From positions 2,046,001 through 2,110,000 of the forward strand of contig NZ_CP069338.1 of assembly GCF_016859125.1 (NCBI RefSeq): DNA of 64,000 bases, read 5' to 3'. Origin of the DNA: Archangium violaceum (lineage in GTDB: Bacteria > Myxococcota > Myxococcia > Myxococcales > Myxococcaceae). Numbering within the stretch: position 1 is the first letter of the stretch; each line of letters starts with the position of its first letter. A program made the position numbers and the translations under genes. Shown here one piece after another: positions 39,571 through 44,212 of this stretch. The notes under the pieces are model-generated. The model did not search any database. It was not told the DNA's origin and was given only the letters and a program-made list of their open reading frames with translations.

Positions 39571-40614
39571 TCAGCGGCGGCGCTTGTGCGGGTTCTGCTG
39601 GGCGAGCGCGGTGGCCAGCGTCTCGCGCACCTGCCGTGCCTGGAAGAGCCGGTCCGCCGTGTCCAGCAGCGTCTCCGCGTACAGCACGTGCTTGCGCAGC
39701 CGCGCGGGGATGGCGGCCGTGCCCAGGTGCGCGCCGAGGAGGGCACCCGTGCAGGCCGCGGCCACGTCGGCCTCGCCCCCGCAGCGCAGCGCCAGCCCCA
39801 CCGCCTGACGGAAGTCGTGCGGCACCTTGAGCGTCGCGAACAGGCTGGTGAGCAGCACCGGCACCACATGCGGCGGCAGGCCGTCCACGCCCCGGAGCTG
39901 ACTGGGCGGCACGCTCACCTTGCGCAACTGCCCGAGCGCCCGCGCCGTGTCCCACGTCAGCAGCCGGGGCAGGTGCCGCAGCTCCTCGGCCAGTTCCTTG
40001 TCGTGCGCCGCCGCCGACAGCGCCAGCTCCTCGCAGAAGGCGGCGGGCGTGAGGGGCTCCTTCGTCGTGAGTCCCAGCGCCACCGCCTGCGCGAAGGCGG
40101 CCGCGGCCGCCGCGCACGTGGGATCCTTGTGCGTCAGCACCGACAGCACGCCCGCGTCGTGGCGGATGCGCACCCGGCTCTTGCTCTCGAAGAGGCCCAC
40201 CACCACCGCGCGGCTGAGCACCGAGTGGCACTTCACGCCCAGCGGCGCTCCCGCGCTCATCCACGGAGTGCCCTGCGCCAGCTTCTGCAGCGCCTCGGCC
40301 AGCTGCTTGGGCGGCTGGAGGATGATGCCCTCCTGCCACAGCCACGCGAAGTGCGCCGCCGCGCTGCGTCCATCCACCTTCCCCTCGCGGATGACGCTCT
40401 CGGCCGCCGCCAGCATCAGCTGCGTGTCATCCGAGAACTGGCCCTTGGCGAACTTCCCCCGTGGCCGGGGCGCGAAGTCCTCCGCCAGTCCAGGAAGGCG
40501 AGCCAGGCTCGCCGGAGGGATGCCGCGCAGGGGAAAACCGAGGGCATCCCCGATGGCGAGTCCCAGGAATGCCGCTTGAAACCTGTCCTGGCGCTCGGCG
40601 GGAGTCAGCGACAT
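39571..40614 (-). CDS. ADP-ribosylglycohydrolase-family protein with a variant metal site
   Basis: ADP-ribosylglycohydrolases (ARH/DraG) remove ADP-ribose from proteins using two Mg ions. The 347-residue protein has FLGLAIGDALGFPLRG, FSDDTQLMLA (metal-binding DDT) and GLALRCGGEADVAAACTGALLGAHLG. In most relatives the last motif is GGDTDT; here GGEADV replaces the first Asp with Glu and loses the Thr, so activity may be changed. Central features (HKDPTCAAAAAAFAQAVALGL) fit the family. ATG 40614 is preferred over TTG 40626. It is monocistronic. Confidence 0.87.
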   Translation of the reverse strand: MSLTPAERQDRFQAAFLGLAIGDALGFPLRGIPPASLARLPGLAEDFAPRPRGKFAKGQFSDDTQLMLAAAESVIREGKVDGRSAAAHFAWLWQEGIILQPPKQLAEALQKLAQGTPWMSAGAPLGVKCHSVLSRAVVVGLFESKSRVRIRHDAGVLSVLTHKDPTCAAAAAAFAQAVALGLTTKEPLTPAAFCEELALSAAAHDKELAEELRHLPRLLTWDTARALGQLRKVSVPPSQLRGVDGLPPHVVPVLLTSLFATLKVPHDFRQAVGLALRCGGEADVAAACTGALLGAHLGTAAIPARLRKHVLYAETLLDTADRLFQARQVRETLATALAQQNPHKRRR

Positions 40615-40761
40615 GGGGAGCGGCAAGATAACCGAGCCGCGTTCAGTGACTAGCCCCGTCTTTCATCTCTTCGTGAGTTCCTCGCATGCCGACGCACAGC
40701 TTGGGTGAAGGGCGCTCTCCCACCACAAGGTACGCGCGCACGTGCGGTGCATGGCACGCAA

Positions 40762-40796: not shown

Positions 40797-41054
40797 TTAC
40801 GGATCGCGACCGAGGTTGACAACCGCCTGCAGTCTCGCCACGACGGCCTGCGCGCCCTGGTGCAGGTGCTCGCCATCCCAGAGTGCCGGTGTGCTGTGTC
40901 CACCCCGTTCTCGCCAGGCCGCCTCCGCATCGGGAAAGGCGACATTGCGAAAGCGCACCCGGTCCTCGAGCTCGTAGTCCACCACGTAGCGGCGCGCTTC
41001 CGCCGAGGGCGGGTCCGCGATGCGGTGGAAGAGCTCCAGCACGTGACCCGTCAT
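40797..41054 (-). CDS. Small thioredoxin-fold-like protein at the end of the nsrR operon
   Basis: An 85-residue protein: VLELFHRIADPPSAEARRYVVDYELEDRVRFRNVAF, then STPALWDGEHLHQGAQAVVARLQAVV. The order strand, helix with a substituted active site, strand, cis-Pro-like STPAL, strand and helix resembles a glutaredoxin or GST N-terminal half. The CxxC is absent (RIADPPS in its place), so it is not a disulphide reductase. Its place 11 bp behind nsrR in the same transcript suggests a role in nitrosative or redox stress; this is inference. I do not recognise a named family. Confidence 0.7.
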   Translation of the reverse strand: MTGHVLELFHRIADPPSAEARRYVVDYELEDRVRFRNVAFPDAEAAWRERGGHSTPALWDGEHLHQGAQAVVARLQAVVNLGRDP

Positions 41055-41065
41055 GGCTGGACCTC

Positions 41066-41527
41066 TCAGCCCGCCCCGCCCACATCCACCGTGGGCTTGA
41101 GGAAGTAGGCGGACAGCTTGCGCGGGCTGCGCCGCAGGATGTCCTCCAGCGTGTATTGGTCGAGCGTGGCCAGGAAGGAGCGTGTCGCCTCGTTGAGCAC
41201 GCCGATGAGCCCACAGGCCGGAGTGATGGGGCAGTTGTTCCGCTCCCCATCGAAGCACTCCACGATGTGGAAGTCCGGCTCCATGTGCCGCACCACCTGC
41301 CCCACGGAGATCTCCGAGGGCGGCCGCGCCAGGACGACGCCTCCGGCCCGCCCCGGCCTCACCTCCACGAAGCCGTGGCGGCCCAGGCCCTGCACCACCC
41401 GGACGAGGTGGTGCTTGGAGATGCCATAGGCGTCGCTTACCTCGCCCGTGGAGACCACCCGATCCGGGTTGGCCGCGAGGTACAGCAGCACGCGCAGCGC
41501 GTAGTCAGCGTGAAGCGTCAGATGCAC
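41066..41527 (-). CDS. nsrR: NsrR, nitric-oxide-sensing Rrf2-family repressor
   Basis: NsrR holds an iron-sulphur cluster that reacts with nitric oxide, releasing repression of NO-detoxifying genes. The 153-residue protein has the Rrf2 winged helix (LHADYALRVLLYLAANPDRVVSTGEVSDAYGISKHHLVRVVQGL; GGVVLARPPSEISVGQVVRHMEP) and three cluster cysteines, Cys91, Cys99 and Cys105, in CFDGERNNCPITPAC; the CxITPAC part matches E. coli NsrR (CHITPAC). The start overlaps the end of the reductase gene by 23 bp. NsrR-type boxes lie before the first operon gene, so autoregulation is likely. Confidence 0.9.
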   Translation of the reverse strand: MHLTLHADYALRVLLYLAANPDRVVSTGEVSDAYGISKHHLVRVVQGLGRHGFVEVRPGRAGGVVLARPPSEISVGQVVRHMEPDFHIVECFDGERNNCPITPACGLIGVLNEATRSFLATLDQYTLEDILRRSPRKLSAYFLKPTVDVGGAG

Positions 41528-42521
41528 TGGCCATCACTCCCGCTCCCCCCTGAGGCGGGGGAGTGCTCGGGAGGAAGGCATCCGCGTGGATCTCCTTGAG
41601 CGACAGCCCGGCCAGGAAGAGCTTCTTCCTCAGGGATAGCACCAGGTCCGGGCTGCCGCACAGGTACCCCCTCCAGCCGGCCGGCCGAGGGCATACCTCC
41701 TTGATGATCGCGTCCAGCGCTCCCACCGTCACCCCCACCCGCGCCTGTCCCTTCGAGACGCAGGGCCTGTACTGGAGTTGGGGATGGCGCGACTGCAAGG
41801 CCCGGAGCTCCTCCACGAGGTACAACCCCGAGACGTCCACCGCGCCGTGGAAGAGCCAGATGGGTCCGGTATGCCCCCGCTCCAGCGCGTCCCGGATGAT
41901 GCCGTAGAGCGGCGCCAGGCCCGTGCCCGTCCCCACCAACAGCAGCGACTGCTCCGGCCGCCCCGGCACGTAGAAGCACTCGCCCGCGGGTCCTTGGAGC
42001 TCCAACACATCACCGGGCCGGGCCTCCTCGAAGAGCCAGCCGCTCATCCGGCCTCCGGGGACACGGCGGACATGCAGCGCCAGGGTGTCCTCGTGCGGCA
42101 GACTCGCCAGCGAGTAGCTCCGGGCCAGTCCATCCGTCCGGAGCACGGACACGTACTGGCCGGCCCGGTACTCGAAGTCCCCCTCGGGACGCAGCCGCAC
42201 GCACAGCACACTGTCGCTGAGTCTTTCCAGCGAGGTGATGCGCGCGGGCACCCGCAGGTCCGCGCCCGCCCCGGCCACCTCGAGCTCACCTTCCGGCTGG
42301 CACGCGCACGCGAGGAAGTAGCCCCGCGCCTTCAGCGTCTCCTTCAGCCCCACCTGCGCCCGGGCCGGCACCTCGCCGCGCTCGGCTCGCATCAGGCAGG
42401 ACTGACACGCCCCCGCCCTGCACGAGTGCGGCACCTCCACCCCCCGCCGCAGCAGCCCGTCGAGCACCGACTCGCCTTCGTCCAGCCCGTACCACTGCCC
42501 CTCGTGCTTGACCCTCGCCAT
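41505..42521 (-). CDS. 2Fe-2S ferredoxin / FAD-NAD(P)H reductase fusion
   Basis: A 338-residue electron-transfer protein. Residues 1-85 form a plant-type 2Fe-2S domain (SCRAGACQSC, fourth Cys in FLACACQP). Then come an FAD domain with the RSYSLAS flavin motif and a NAD(P)H domain (LLVGTGTGLAPLYG, then GYLCGSPDLV). This order is that of oxygenase reductases such as BenC or MmoC. Here it sits 20 bp behind a truncated haemoglobin and ahead of nsrR, so it may supply electrons for haemoglobin-based NO dioxygenation, doing the job of the reductase half of flavohaemoglobin Hmp. Substrate and partner are inferred. Confidence 0.9.
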   Translation of the reverse strand: MARVKHEGQWYGLDEGESVLDGLLRRGVEVPHSCRAGACQSCLMRAERGEVPARAQVGLKETLKARGYFLACACQPEGELEVAGAGADLRVPARITSLERLSDSVLCVRLRPEGDFEYRAGQYVSVLRTDGLARSYSLASLPHEDTLALHVRRVPGGRMSGWLFEEARPGDVLELQGPAGECFYVPGRPEQSLLLVGTGTGLAPLYGIIRDALERGHTGPIWLFHGAVDVSGLYLVEELRALQSRHPQLQYRPCVSKGQARVGVTVGALDAIIKEVCPRPAGWRGYLCGSPDLVLSLRKKLFLAGLSLKEIHADAFLPSTPPPQGGAGVMASASDASR

Positions 42522-42541
42522 GCGAGTGCCCCCTCTCGTCC

Positions 42542-42931
42542 TCAGCGGTTGAGCACGTCCGCCCGCGCGCTCCCGGCGATCGCCAGCACCTGCTCCACCA
42601 GCGGCTTCGCCACGCCCAGCTCCGTCAGCGTCGCCGACAGGTGCTCCACCACCGCGTCGAAGTGCGTGTCGTTCAGCCCCTGCCGCACCAGGTGCGCGTG
42701 CCCCTTGCGCATGTCCTTGCCCGAGTAGGCGCTCGGGCCCCCGCACACCATCGTGAGGAACGCCTTCTGCTTCGCCGCCTGGCGCTCCATGTCCACGTCC
42801 TCGAAGAAGTGGCTGATGCGCTCGTCCGACAACACCTTCCGGTAGAAGAGCTCCACCGCCGCCGCCATCGCCGGCTCCCCGCCAATCCGCTCGTACAGGC
42901 TGCTCTGCTTCTCCGCGACGCTGGTGCTCAT
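42542..42931 (-). CDS. Truncated haemoglobin (group I-like)
   Basis: A 129-residue 2-on-2 globin: SLYERIGGEPAMAAAVELFYRKVLSDERISHFF (helices A-B-E with the GG hinge), then GGPSAYSGKDMRKGHAHLV where the His before LV is the likely proximal haem ligand, and FDAVVEHLSATLTELGV. The distal Tyr is at FYRKV. Group I members oxidise nitric oxide to nitrate if they have a reductase. It is the first gene of the NsrR operon, with two NsrR-like boxes 39-81 bp upstream of its ATG. The start at 42931 is fixed by a GGGGAG signal and homologous length. Confidence 0.92.
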   Translation of the reverse strand: MSTSVAEKQSSLYERIGGEPAMAAAVELFYRKVLSDERISHFFEDVDMERQAAKQKAFLTMVCGGPSAYSGKDMRKGHAHLVRQGLNDTHFDAVVEHLSATLTELGVAKPLVEQVLAIAGSARADVLNR

Positions 42932-42969
42932 GTGTGCCCGCTCCCCCGGACCGGCTCGGGTCCGACAAT

Positions 42970-42988
42970 GATGCATCTCAAATGCATC
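42970..42988. promoter_or_regulatory. NsrR-like operator 1
   Basis: GATGCATCTCAAATGCATC: GATGCAT, five-base spacer, ATGCATC, a perfect 7-5-7 inverted repeat. Read with flanks it ends ATGCATCTT, closely following the known NsrR consensus (AAGATGCAT-N5-ATGCATCTT). It lies 39 bp upstream of the truncated haemoglobin ATG, in an AT-rich patch. Confidence 0.75.
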
Positions 42989-42995
42989 TTTTAAT

Positions 42996-43012
42996 GTGCA
43001 TATGGAATGCAC
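42996..43012. promoter_or_regulatory. NsrR-like operator 2
   Basis: GTGCATATGGAATGCAC: GTGCAT, ATGGA, ATGCAC, a perfect 6-5-6 inverted repeat with the same spacing and core as operator 1. The centres are 25 bp apart, roughly 2.4 helical turns, so two dimers could bind side by side. Confidence 0.6.
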
Positions 43013-43182
43013 CTTTTTGAACGAGACGTCAAGAGGGCGCGCACTGTCCGTGCGTCCGGGCAACTGGGGTTCAGTGATGTTGAGGGGGGACGGCTCGCGG
43101 TCAGGGGGCTCGAGAGTGGGAGCCTCGCGTCCTGCACCGCAGGGCCCTTGGGGCCCGTACCGAGGTACTGCTCAGGGGGCGA

Positions 43183-43230: not shown

Positions 43231-43635
43231 TCAGCGCATCGTGGCGGCGGACATTCGCGCCGTCTCGCGACGCACCGTGGCCTGCTCGATGTCGAAGCGC
43301 ACGTCGTCCGACGACATGCCGCGCAGACGCTCCTGCGCCTCCTGCATCCGCCGGCGCGCCGCCTCCACGTCGATGCCCGTCACCGCCTCGGCCACGTCCG
43401 CGAGCACCAGCACCTTGTCGTTGCTCACCTCGGCGAAGCCGCCCGCCACGAAGTAGTACTCGCGCCGACCTCCATCGATCAGCGTCAGCACCCCCGGCTC
43501 CATCAGCGACAGGAACGGCGTGTGGCCCGGCCGAACGCCGAACAGACCCTTGCCGCCCGGGACGATCGCCTCGTCCGCCTGCACCGACAGGATGCGCTTC
43601 TCGGGGGTCACAATCTCGACCGTCAGCTTGGCCAT
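43231..43635 (-). CDS. atpC: ATP synthase F1 epsilon subunit
   Basis: AtpC forms part of the central stalk and inhibits ATP hydrolysis. The 134-residue protein has the N-terminal beta-sandwich (KLTVEIVTPEKRILSVQADEAIVPGGKGLFGVRPGHTPFLSL; YYFVAGGFAEVSNDKVLVLAD) and the C-terminal helical hairpin (VEAARRRMQEAQERLRG). The usual operon order puts atpC directly after atpD, but here a 181-residue exported protein gene lies between. The terminal helix is of normal length. Confidence 0.95.
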   Translation of the reverse strand: MAKLTVEIVTPEKRILSVQADEAIVPGGKGLFGVRPGHTPFLSLMEPGVLTLIDGGRREYYFVAGGFAEVSNDKVLVLADVAEAVTGIDVEAARRRMQEAQERLRGMSSDDVRFDIEQATVRRETARMSAATMR

Positions 43636-43666: not shown

Positions 43667-44212
43667 TCAGAAGGTCAGCTTGTGGGACTTGCCGCCCACC
43701 GTCTCGAACTCGATGTGCCCGGCGTCCGTCAGACGCGGGCCCTTGCCCGGAACCCCGAGCAGTCCTTCCAACCACTTGAGGTGCTGGCCCAACTGCCGCA
43801 CCTCCGGTAGCTCGCGCTGGGCCACGAAGCTCAACAGGCTCCGCTCCTGCACCCGCCCACCCTGGCGGTCGTACTCCACCGCCACCACCGTGTTGGCCCA
43901 CGCGGGCACCTTCCTGTACCGCTTGCCGGGCAGCTTCTTCGTGCCCTTGGGCGCCAGCGGGAAGAGCACCCACACCCGCGCTCCGTCGTTGGAGACGAAG
44001 TACAGGTCATCCACCCCGCCCACGCACTCCTTCAGCGTCCAGAGCGGCCCGCTCTCCTTCGACACCTCCAGCGTGCACTGCCCGGGGGCCTTCTCCACCA
44101 GGCGCACGCTGAAGGTACCGTTGGCGCTCACCCGCGTACGGCTGGCGCGCTCCGCGGCGGACGCCGGGAGCGACACCAGCAACAGCATCACGATGAGGGC
44201 GGAGCGCGACAT
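43667..44212 (-). CDS. Exported protein inserted between atpD and atpC
   Basis: A 181-residue protein with a signal peptide (ALIVMLLLVSLPASAAE, cleaved near residue 20) and no recognised domain. The body is a beta-rich sequence: GTFSVRLVEKAPGQCTLEVSKESGPLWTLKEC, DDLYFVSNDGARVWVLFPLAP. Two cysteines (about 12 residues apart in the CTLEV..KEC region) may pair. Only 30 bp separate it from each neighbouring atp gene, so it is probably in the same transcript. A link to ATP synthase is not expected for an exported protein; a similar gene layout in other myxobacteria would show whether it is fixed. Confidence 0.75.
   Translation of the reverse strand: MSRSALIVMLLLVSLPASAAERASRTRVSANGTFSVRLVEKAPGQCTLEVSKESGPLWTLKECVGGVDDLYFVSNDGARVWVLFPLAPKGTKKLPGKRYRKVPAWANTVVAVEYDRQGGRVQERSLLSFVAQRELPEVRQLGQHLKWLEGLLGVPGKGPRLTDAGHIEFETVGGKSHKLTF

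Follow-up and report, generated by a model that had tools for sequence, protein, structure and literature searches.

Arrangement and conservation of the globin locus

A gene for a truncated globin is followed by genes for an iron-sulfur flavoprotein reductase and an NsrR-type regulator, which raises the question whether their products act together in the removal of nitric oxide (NO), and which of the neighbouring genes belong to such a unit. The original prediction had taken four genes for a split flavohaemoglobin operon. In the window (the whole stretch of 64,000 nucleotides that was analysed) the four open reading frames were found at the places, in the order and on the minus strand as had been described. 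The first three are referred to here as the cassette and are listed with the neighbouring genes.

42542-42931, minus strand: group I truncated globin, 129 aa (Pfam Bac_globin, 4e-19; PDB cyanoglobins, 1e-34)
41505-42521, minus strand: NAD(P)H reductase, 338 aa, with N-terminal [2Fe-2S], FAD and NAD domains (Pfam Fer2, FAD_binding_6, NAD_binding_1)
41066-41527, minus strand: NsrR-type Rrf2 repressor, 153 aa, GTG start (Rrf2, 5e-36)
40797-41054, minus strand: 85-aa GST-N/thioredoxin-like protein without CxxC, a flanking resident of the ATP synthase locus
43231-43635, minus strand: atpC (ATP synthase epsilon), the border of the insertion, named on the basis of sequence and of its place after atpD
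39571-40626, minus strand: ADP-ribosylglycohydrolase-like gene, a neighbour of the 85-aa gene whether or not the cassette is present, named from its sequence

In the window the 5′ part of nsrR overlaps the end of the reductase gene by 23 bp, and the 85-aa gene starts 11 bp past nsrR. In a PDB search the globin comes closest to cyanoglobins and further group I truncated globins of solved structure. The 2/2 globin profile is present together with Tyr30 (B10), Phe43 (CD1), Gln55 (E11) and the proximal His78, as in a group I (N) truncated globin, and these four residues are invariant in 82 of 82 globins; positions E7 and E10 are occupied by Gln51 and Lys54. The closest named genome found for the globin in a scan of GTDB species genomes was that of Archangium violaceum (91%). 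Cys34, 39, 42 and 72 of the reductase are invariant in 72 of 72 sequences, and its closest named families are oxygenase reductases.

Conservation was surveyed in 145 genomes of the order, 53 of which hold the globin at ≥72% identity. The reductase gene lies a few tens of bases downstream of the globin gene in all 53, and nsrR comes next in all 51 genomes with a contig long enough to test. Since globin and reductase are kept together in 53/53 genomes, the gene order is not due to chance. The predicted neighbourhood of a group I truncated globin and a separate 2Fe-2S/FAD/NAD(P)H reductase is thus borne out by the Pfam and PDB matches and by this linkage, and globin, reductase and nsrR form a real module.

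The pair is also present outside the Myxococcaceae. The GTDB scan returned 29 further globin loci, including several near-duplicate metagenome-assembled genomes (MAGs), and the reductase gene is directly downstream in 18 of them. These pairs occur in Gammaproteobacteria, Armatimonadota, Lentisphaerota and Polyangia, namely in Methylomonas, Neptuniibacter, Gallionella, other Gammaproteobacteria, Chthonomonadaceae, Lentisphaeraceae and one Polyangia MAG, and 11 of the 18 are flanked by NsrR or an Rrf2 relative. Reductases encoded beside related globins of other phyla show 40-51% identity. One 79%-complete genome (L036, 2443-3969) encodes a fusion protein of a Fer2-FAD-NAD reductase with a truncated globin that is more distantly related; the protein has a C-terminal tail with two CxxC pairs. 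Two Neptuniibacter loci (L151 and L155) carry two tandem globin copies ahead of the reductase, in L151 apparently as one reading frame of 268 aa.

An NsrR-type regulator and its operators

The model scores do not decide between NsrR (124 bits) and RirA (122 bits) for the regulator, both being under the cut-offs, and the NsrR equivalog cut-off of 182 bits is clearly missed. The protein has an Rrf2 domain with the three cysteine ligands and the Asp8 typical of NsrR; Cys91, Cys99, Cys105 and Asp8 are conserved across relatives, and the best PDB match is NsrR. We therefore name it NsrR-type on account of its cysteine triad and Asp8, of the PDB match, and of the DNA box together with its target. 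The assignment of nsrR to the same operon as globin and reductase holds, in agreement with its position in the 51 testable genomes. The genome of the window encodes only one close NsrR relative.

The original prediction had missed two palindromes that lie ahead of the globin gene:

42968-42990, minus strand: operator palindrome of NsrR type AAGATGCATTTGAGATGCATCAT, the nearer one, some 37 bp ahead of the globin start
42993-43015, minus strand: second NsrR-type palindrome AAGGTGCATTCCATATGCACATT, scoring 17/22 to the consensus

The palindrome AAGATGCATTTGAGATGCATCAT has one mismatch to the consensus (0 expected by shuffling), and nowhere else in the 12.7 Mb genome is the pattern matched perfectly; a reversed control pattern gave zero matches there. 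AAGGTGCATTCCATATGCACATT has two mismatches to the genome-wide pattern and, with both strands considered, is among few such sites in the 12.7 Mb; a second box at a similar spacing was seen within this genus. An NsrR-type box precedes the globin gene in 53/53 relatives, with scores of 15-22 out of 22. A larger NsrR regulon was considered for the genome of the window and rejected, as no other perfect box was found in the 12.7 Mb. Beside a two-mismatch palindrome at 7668409 no recognisable NO-related gene was seen. The likeliest reading of these sites is a private circuit in which NsrR would control its own operon.

Relation to Hmp and NorR

Hmp was not found in the genome of the window. Among the 145 genomes a full-length Hmp above the cut-off is encoded in seven (genera g6 and g7), all without the cassette, and Hmp was found in 0 of the 53 cassette genomes. 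A partial match of 43% in genome G075 is not a full Hmp and was left out of this count. In genus g7 four genomes have Hmp versus three with the cassette, and three genomes (G042, G067 and G069) have neither. The genome counts behind this exclusion are not independent, and probably reflect few events of gain or loss, so that p values computed for it, with the partial match in G075 included as an eighth Hmp, deserve caution. A divergently oriented norR adjoins each of the seven hmp genes (87-100% identity to the reference norR), and two of the hmp-linked norR products scored well above the NorR cut-off; an NsrR box was not found at any of the seven. As the Hmp genomes carry norR and no NsrR box, both the sensor and the enzyme seem to differ in these sister genomes while the task stays the same. 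Close relatives would thereby have swapped one defence against NO (NsrR, truncated globin and reductase) for another (NorR and Hmp).

The same reaction is proposed for Hmp and for the cassette, with NAD(P)H and FAD as the electron source, and their distributions are mutually exclusive in this family. Hmp is a single polypeptide of a 3/3 globin and an FAD/NAD part, and lacks a 2Fe-2S domain, whereas the cassette encodes a group I 2/2 globin and a separate reductase with an N-terminal ferredoxin domain, which is nearest to oxygenase reductases. In the search with the Hmp model (NF009805) the reductase part alone gave a match, which was far below the cut-off, and the genes are separate. The term split flavohaemoglobin is therefore inappropriate: an origin by splitting of Hmp was rejected because the domain families of both components differ from those of Hmp and, judged from these families, the resemblance to Hmp is a convergence.

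A distal lysine in the reductase-linked globins

In the PDB-search alignment, position 54 of the globin corresponds to the distal histidine of the cyanobacterial globin, which we take to be His46 (E10), a haem ligand in that protein. Lysine occupies E10 in 52/53 myxobacterial globins and in 18/18 distant reductase-linked globins, and in 2 of the 11 unlinked ones. The reductase-linked globins group together in the tree, with poor support, so the correlation of Lys-E10 with linkage is largely attributed to shared ancestry. Lone globin paralogues are nested among the linked ones, and three of four of these have Met at E10. The second globin of the window's genome (51% identical) likewise has Met at E10 and no reductase beside it.

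In Chlamydomonas THB1, which has NO dioxygenase activity, the haem iron, ferric or ferrous, is ligated by a distal lysine, which diatomic ligands displace (PMC4304232). Because of the pattern at Lys54 (E10) and the lysine ligation in THB1, a Lys-His haem is predicted for the module, with Lys54 as a ligand that would be displaceable as in THB1. More tentatively, these features might be the marks of a distinct class of NO dioxygenases with a wide distribution. In such a system the reductase would dock through its [2Fe-2S] domain on the Lys(E10)-ligated truncated globin, reduction or ligand arrival would free the lysine for O2, and in myxobacteria the system would trade places with NorR/Hmp; we hold this wider proposal possible, and would sooner expect it to fail.

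Proposed function and alternatives

Globin and reductase probably form a two-protein NO dioxygenase that takes the place of Hmp, and together with NsrR they would make up a self-contained module induced by NO. The sensing of NO, the passage of electrons from reductase to globin and the dioxygenation of NO are predicted from sequence and gene context. Without NO, NsrR (presumably with a [4Fe-4S] cluster) would occupy one or both palindromes upstream of the globin gene and silence its own operon. NO would attack the cluster, NsrR would leave its box, and globin, reductase and NsrR would then be made from one message. Electrons would pass from NAD(P)H to FAD and the [2Fe-2S] cluster of the reductase and on to the ferric globin; the ferrous globin would bind O2 and the oxy-globin would convert NO to nitrate. 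The NO dioxygenase reading is preferred because the pairing is conserved in several phyla, NsrR boxes precede the operon, the module and NorR/Hmp exclude each other, and a natural fusion exists. Of the original idea of a two-component NO dioxygenase with an extra 2Fe-2S domain this core is retained, while the split-Hmp interpretation and the fourth gene are given up. Against the preferred reading stand the regulator's score, below the NsrR cut-off and near that for RirA, the possibly few events behind the exclusion of Hmp, the more distant globin of the fusion and the three genomes with neither system; the reductase may serve further acceptors too.

Globin and reductase could also be an NsrR-controlled redox pair with another main job, such as removal of peroxide or peroxynitrite, anoxic reduction of NO or nitrite, or the handling of O2 during nitrosative stress. 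In vitro, truncated globins are active in several ways, and for one from Roseobacter peroxidase activity has been reported (PMC4319818). The NsrR-type operator and the replacement by NorR/Hmp in sister genomes point instead to aerobic NO removal, and we regard another main job as unlikely.

It is quite improbable that the reductase serves a different acceptor, for example an oxygenase or an Fe-S repair system, and shares its promoter with a globin that acts alone. Such a role would fit the oxygenase reductases as its closest named families, and Myxococcaceae do fuse relatives of the reductase to 4Fe-4S/phosphonate-binding and desaturase domains. The cassette contains no oxygenase, however, and the globin-reductase pair, always adjacent in the myxobacterial set, recurs in several phyla and is matched by the L036 fusion. 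At five loci (L037-L041) in genomes of genera g3, g15 and g24, proteins of 1000-1100 aa combine this type of reductase with 4Fe-4S and phosphonate-binding domains.

With regard to the preferred NO dioxygenase module, the hypothesis itself is already known: for Legionella pneumophila, the genome of which lacks hmp, glbN-lpg2536 (cyanoglobin and ferredoxin reductase) was predicted as the sole NsrR target and as oxidising NO like Hmp (Rodionov 2005, PMC1274295), a proposal repeated by Gardner 2012 (PMC3820574). The myxobacterial cassette agrees with it in that the gene of a cyanoglobin-type globin directly precedes that of a ferredoxin-type NAD(P)H reductase, an NsrR operator lies upstream with few or no other targets, and the host has no hmp. 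Unlike the Legionella set, which is described as a two-gene unit and was compared by description only as far as lpg2536 is concerned, the cassette has nsrR as third gene of the operon. A literature search found no experimental test of lpg2536 or of the myxobacterial set. New are the scale of conservation, the mutual exclusion with NorR/Hmp, the reductase-associated distal lysine, and the rejection of the fourth gene.

Other systems resemble the cassette in part. Bradyrhizobium Bjgb-Flp likewise consists of separate globin and flavoprotein genes, there for NO detoxification with mutant phenotypes, but its single-domain globin is homologous to the haem domain of Hmp, NasS-NasT act as regulators, and Flp is shared with the nitrate reductase NasC (PMC4724949). 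In Heterosigma NR2-2/2HbN, which serves NO removal, a group N truncated globin is attached to an FNR-type reductase, in this case as part of a eukaryotic nitrate reductase polypeptide (PMC9837059, PMC3820574). Chlamydomonas THB1 is likewise a group I truncated globin with a distal lysine; it has NO dioxygenase activity and is reduced by separate flavoprotein systems (PMC4304232, PMC7082302). It differs in being eukaryotic. To our knowledge, neither a linked reductase gene nor NsrR is known for THB1.

Conserved linkage, a related fusion and the shared operator name the probable electron partner of the globin. If the preferred reading is true, the module would explain NO handling in these genomes, and the cassette hosts are culturable myxobacteria with no Hmp to mask a phenotype.

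The fourth gene belongs to the ATP synthase locus

The ATP synthase flank of the cassette had gone unnoticed in the original prediction. Cassette-less sites in Myxococcaceae have the order atpG-atpD-181aa-atpC-[85 aa]-ADP-ribosylglycohydrolase-like gene. In 36 testable genomes, window included, the three-gene cassette separates atpC from the 85-aa gene; since the 85-aa gene directly follows atpC in cassette-less relatives, the cassette appears to have landed between the two. Genera g4 and g5 (Citreicoccus, Corallococcus) carry the cassette at another place, and their 85-aa gene still follows atpC. Deeper relatives (L118-L120 and L127) have the 85-aa gene after atpC too, which identifies this adjacency as the older state. 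The conserved 181-aa protein (43667-44212 in the window) is found between atpD and atpC throughout Myxococcaceae and interrupts the usual atpD-atpC neighbourhood.

The four-gene order assumed for relatives holds for globin-reductase (53/53) and for nsrR (51/51 testable), while the 85-aa gene follows nsrR in only 37 of the 51. By its position in these genomes the 85-aa gene is an old flanking neighbour and not an ancestral part of the module; given the 11-bp spacing, it may now be co-transcribed with the cassette. A single functional operon of all four genes, with the 85-aa GST-N-like protein in NO or thiol chemistry, would be in line with this spacing, the frequent position after nsrR and a probable co-transcription, but is very improbable, as the gene follows atpC directly where the cassette is absent, stays there in g4 and g5, and is present in 99/145 genomes, many of them without the globin. 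A four-gene unit was therefore rejected.

For the 85-aa protein itself a Pfam match was not found and a PDB profile search returned nothing. Among its relatives there are weak matches to GST N-terminal domains (best E 7e-4, GST_N_3), and two AlphaFold models (pLDDT 46 and 53) were too poor for use. The earlier description as a thioredoxin-fold-like protein without CxxC is correct as to the missing motif, and the fold is plausible from the weak match in relatives.

Related globins in other contexts

In three Verrucomicrobiota loci (L168, L170 and L172) genes read from their sequences as NsrR, lipoprotein-like and cytochrome-c-like precede a related globin, which has His at E10 and no such reductase, and possibly uses a different electron donor. 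A Corallococcus-type genome (L044, 1839-3881) encodes, next to a CheA-like gene, a protein that combines a truncated globin with PAS and methyl-accepting chemotaxis domains, i.e. a truncated-globin chemotaxis sensor in contrast to the usual 3/3 globin-coupled sensor; a similar globin is present in a long frame at L043. In an alphaproteobacterial MAG (L174, 4560-7499) a CheA-type histidine kinase contains, between its Hpt and dimerisation domains, a group I truncated globin domain whose distal residue E10 is Met, and L177 has a similar globin.
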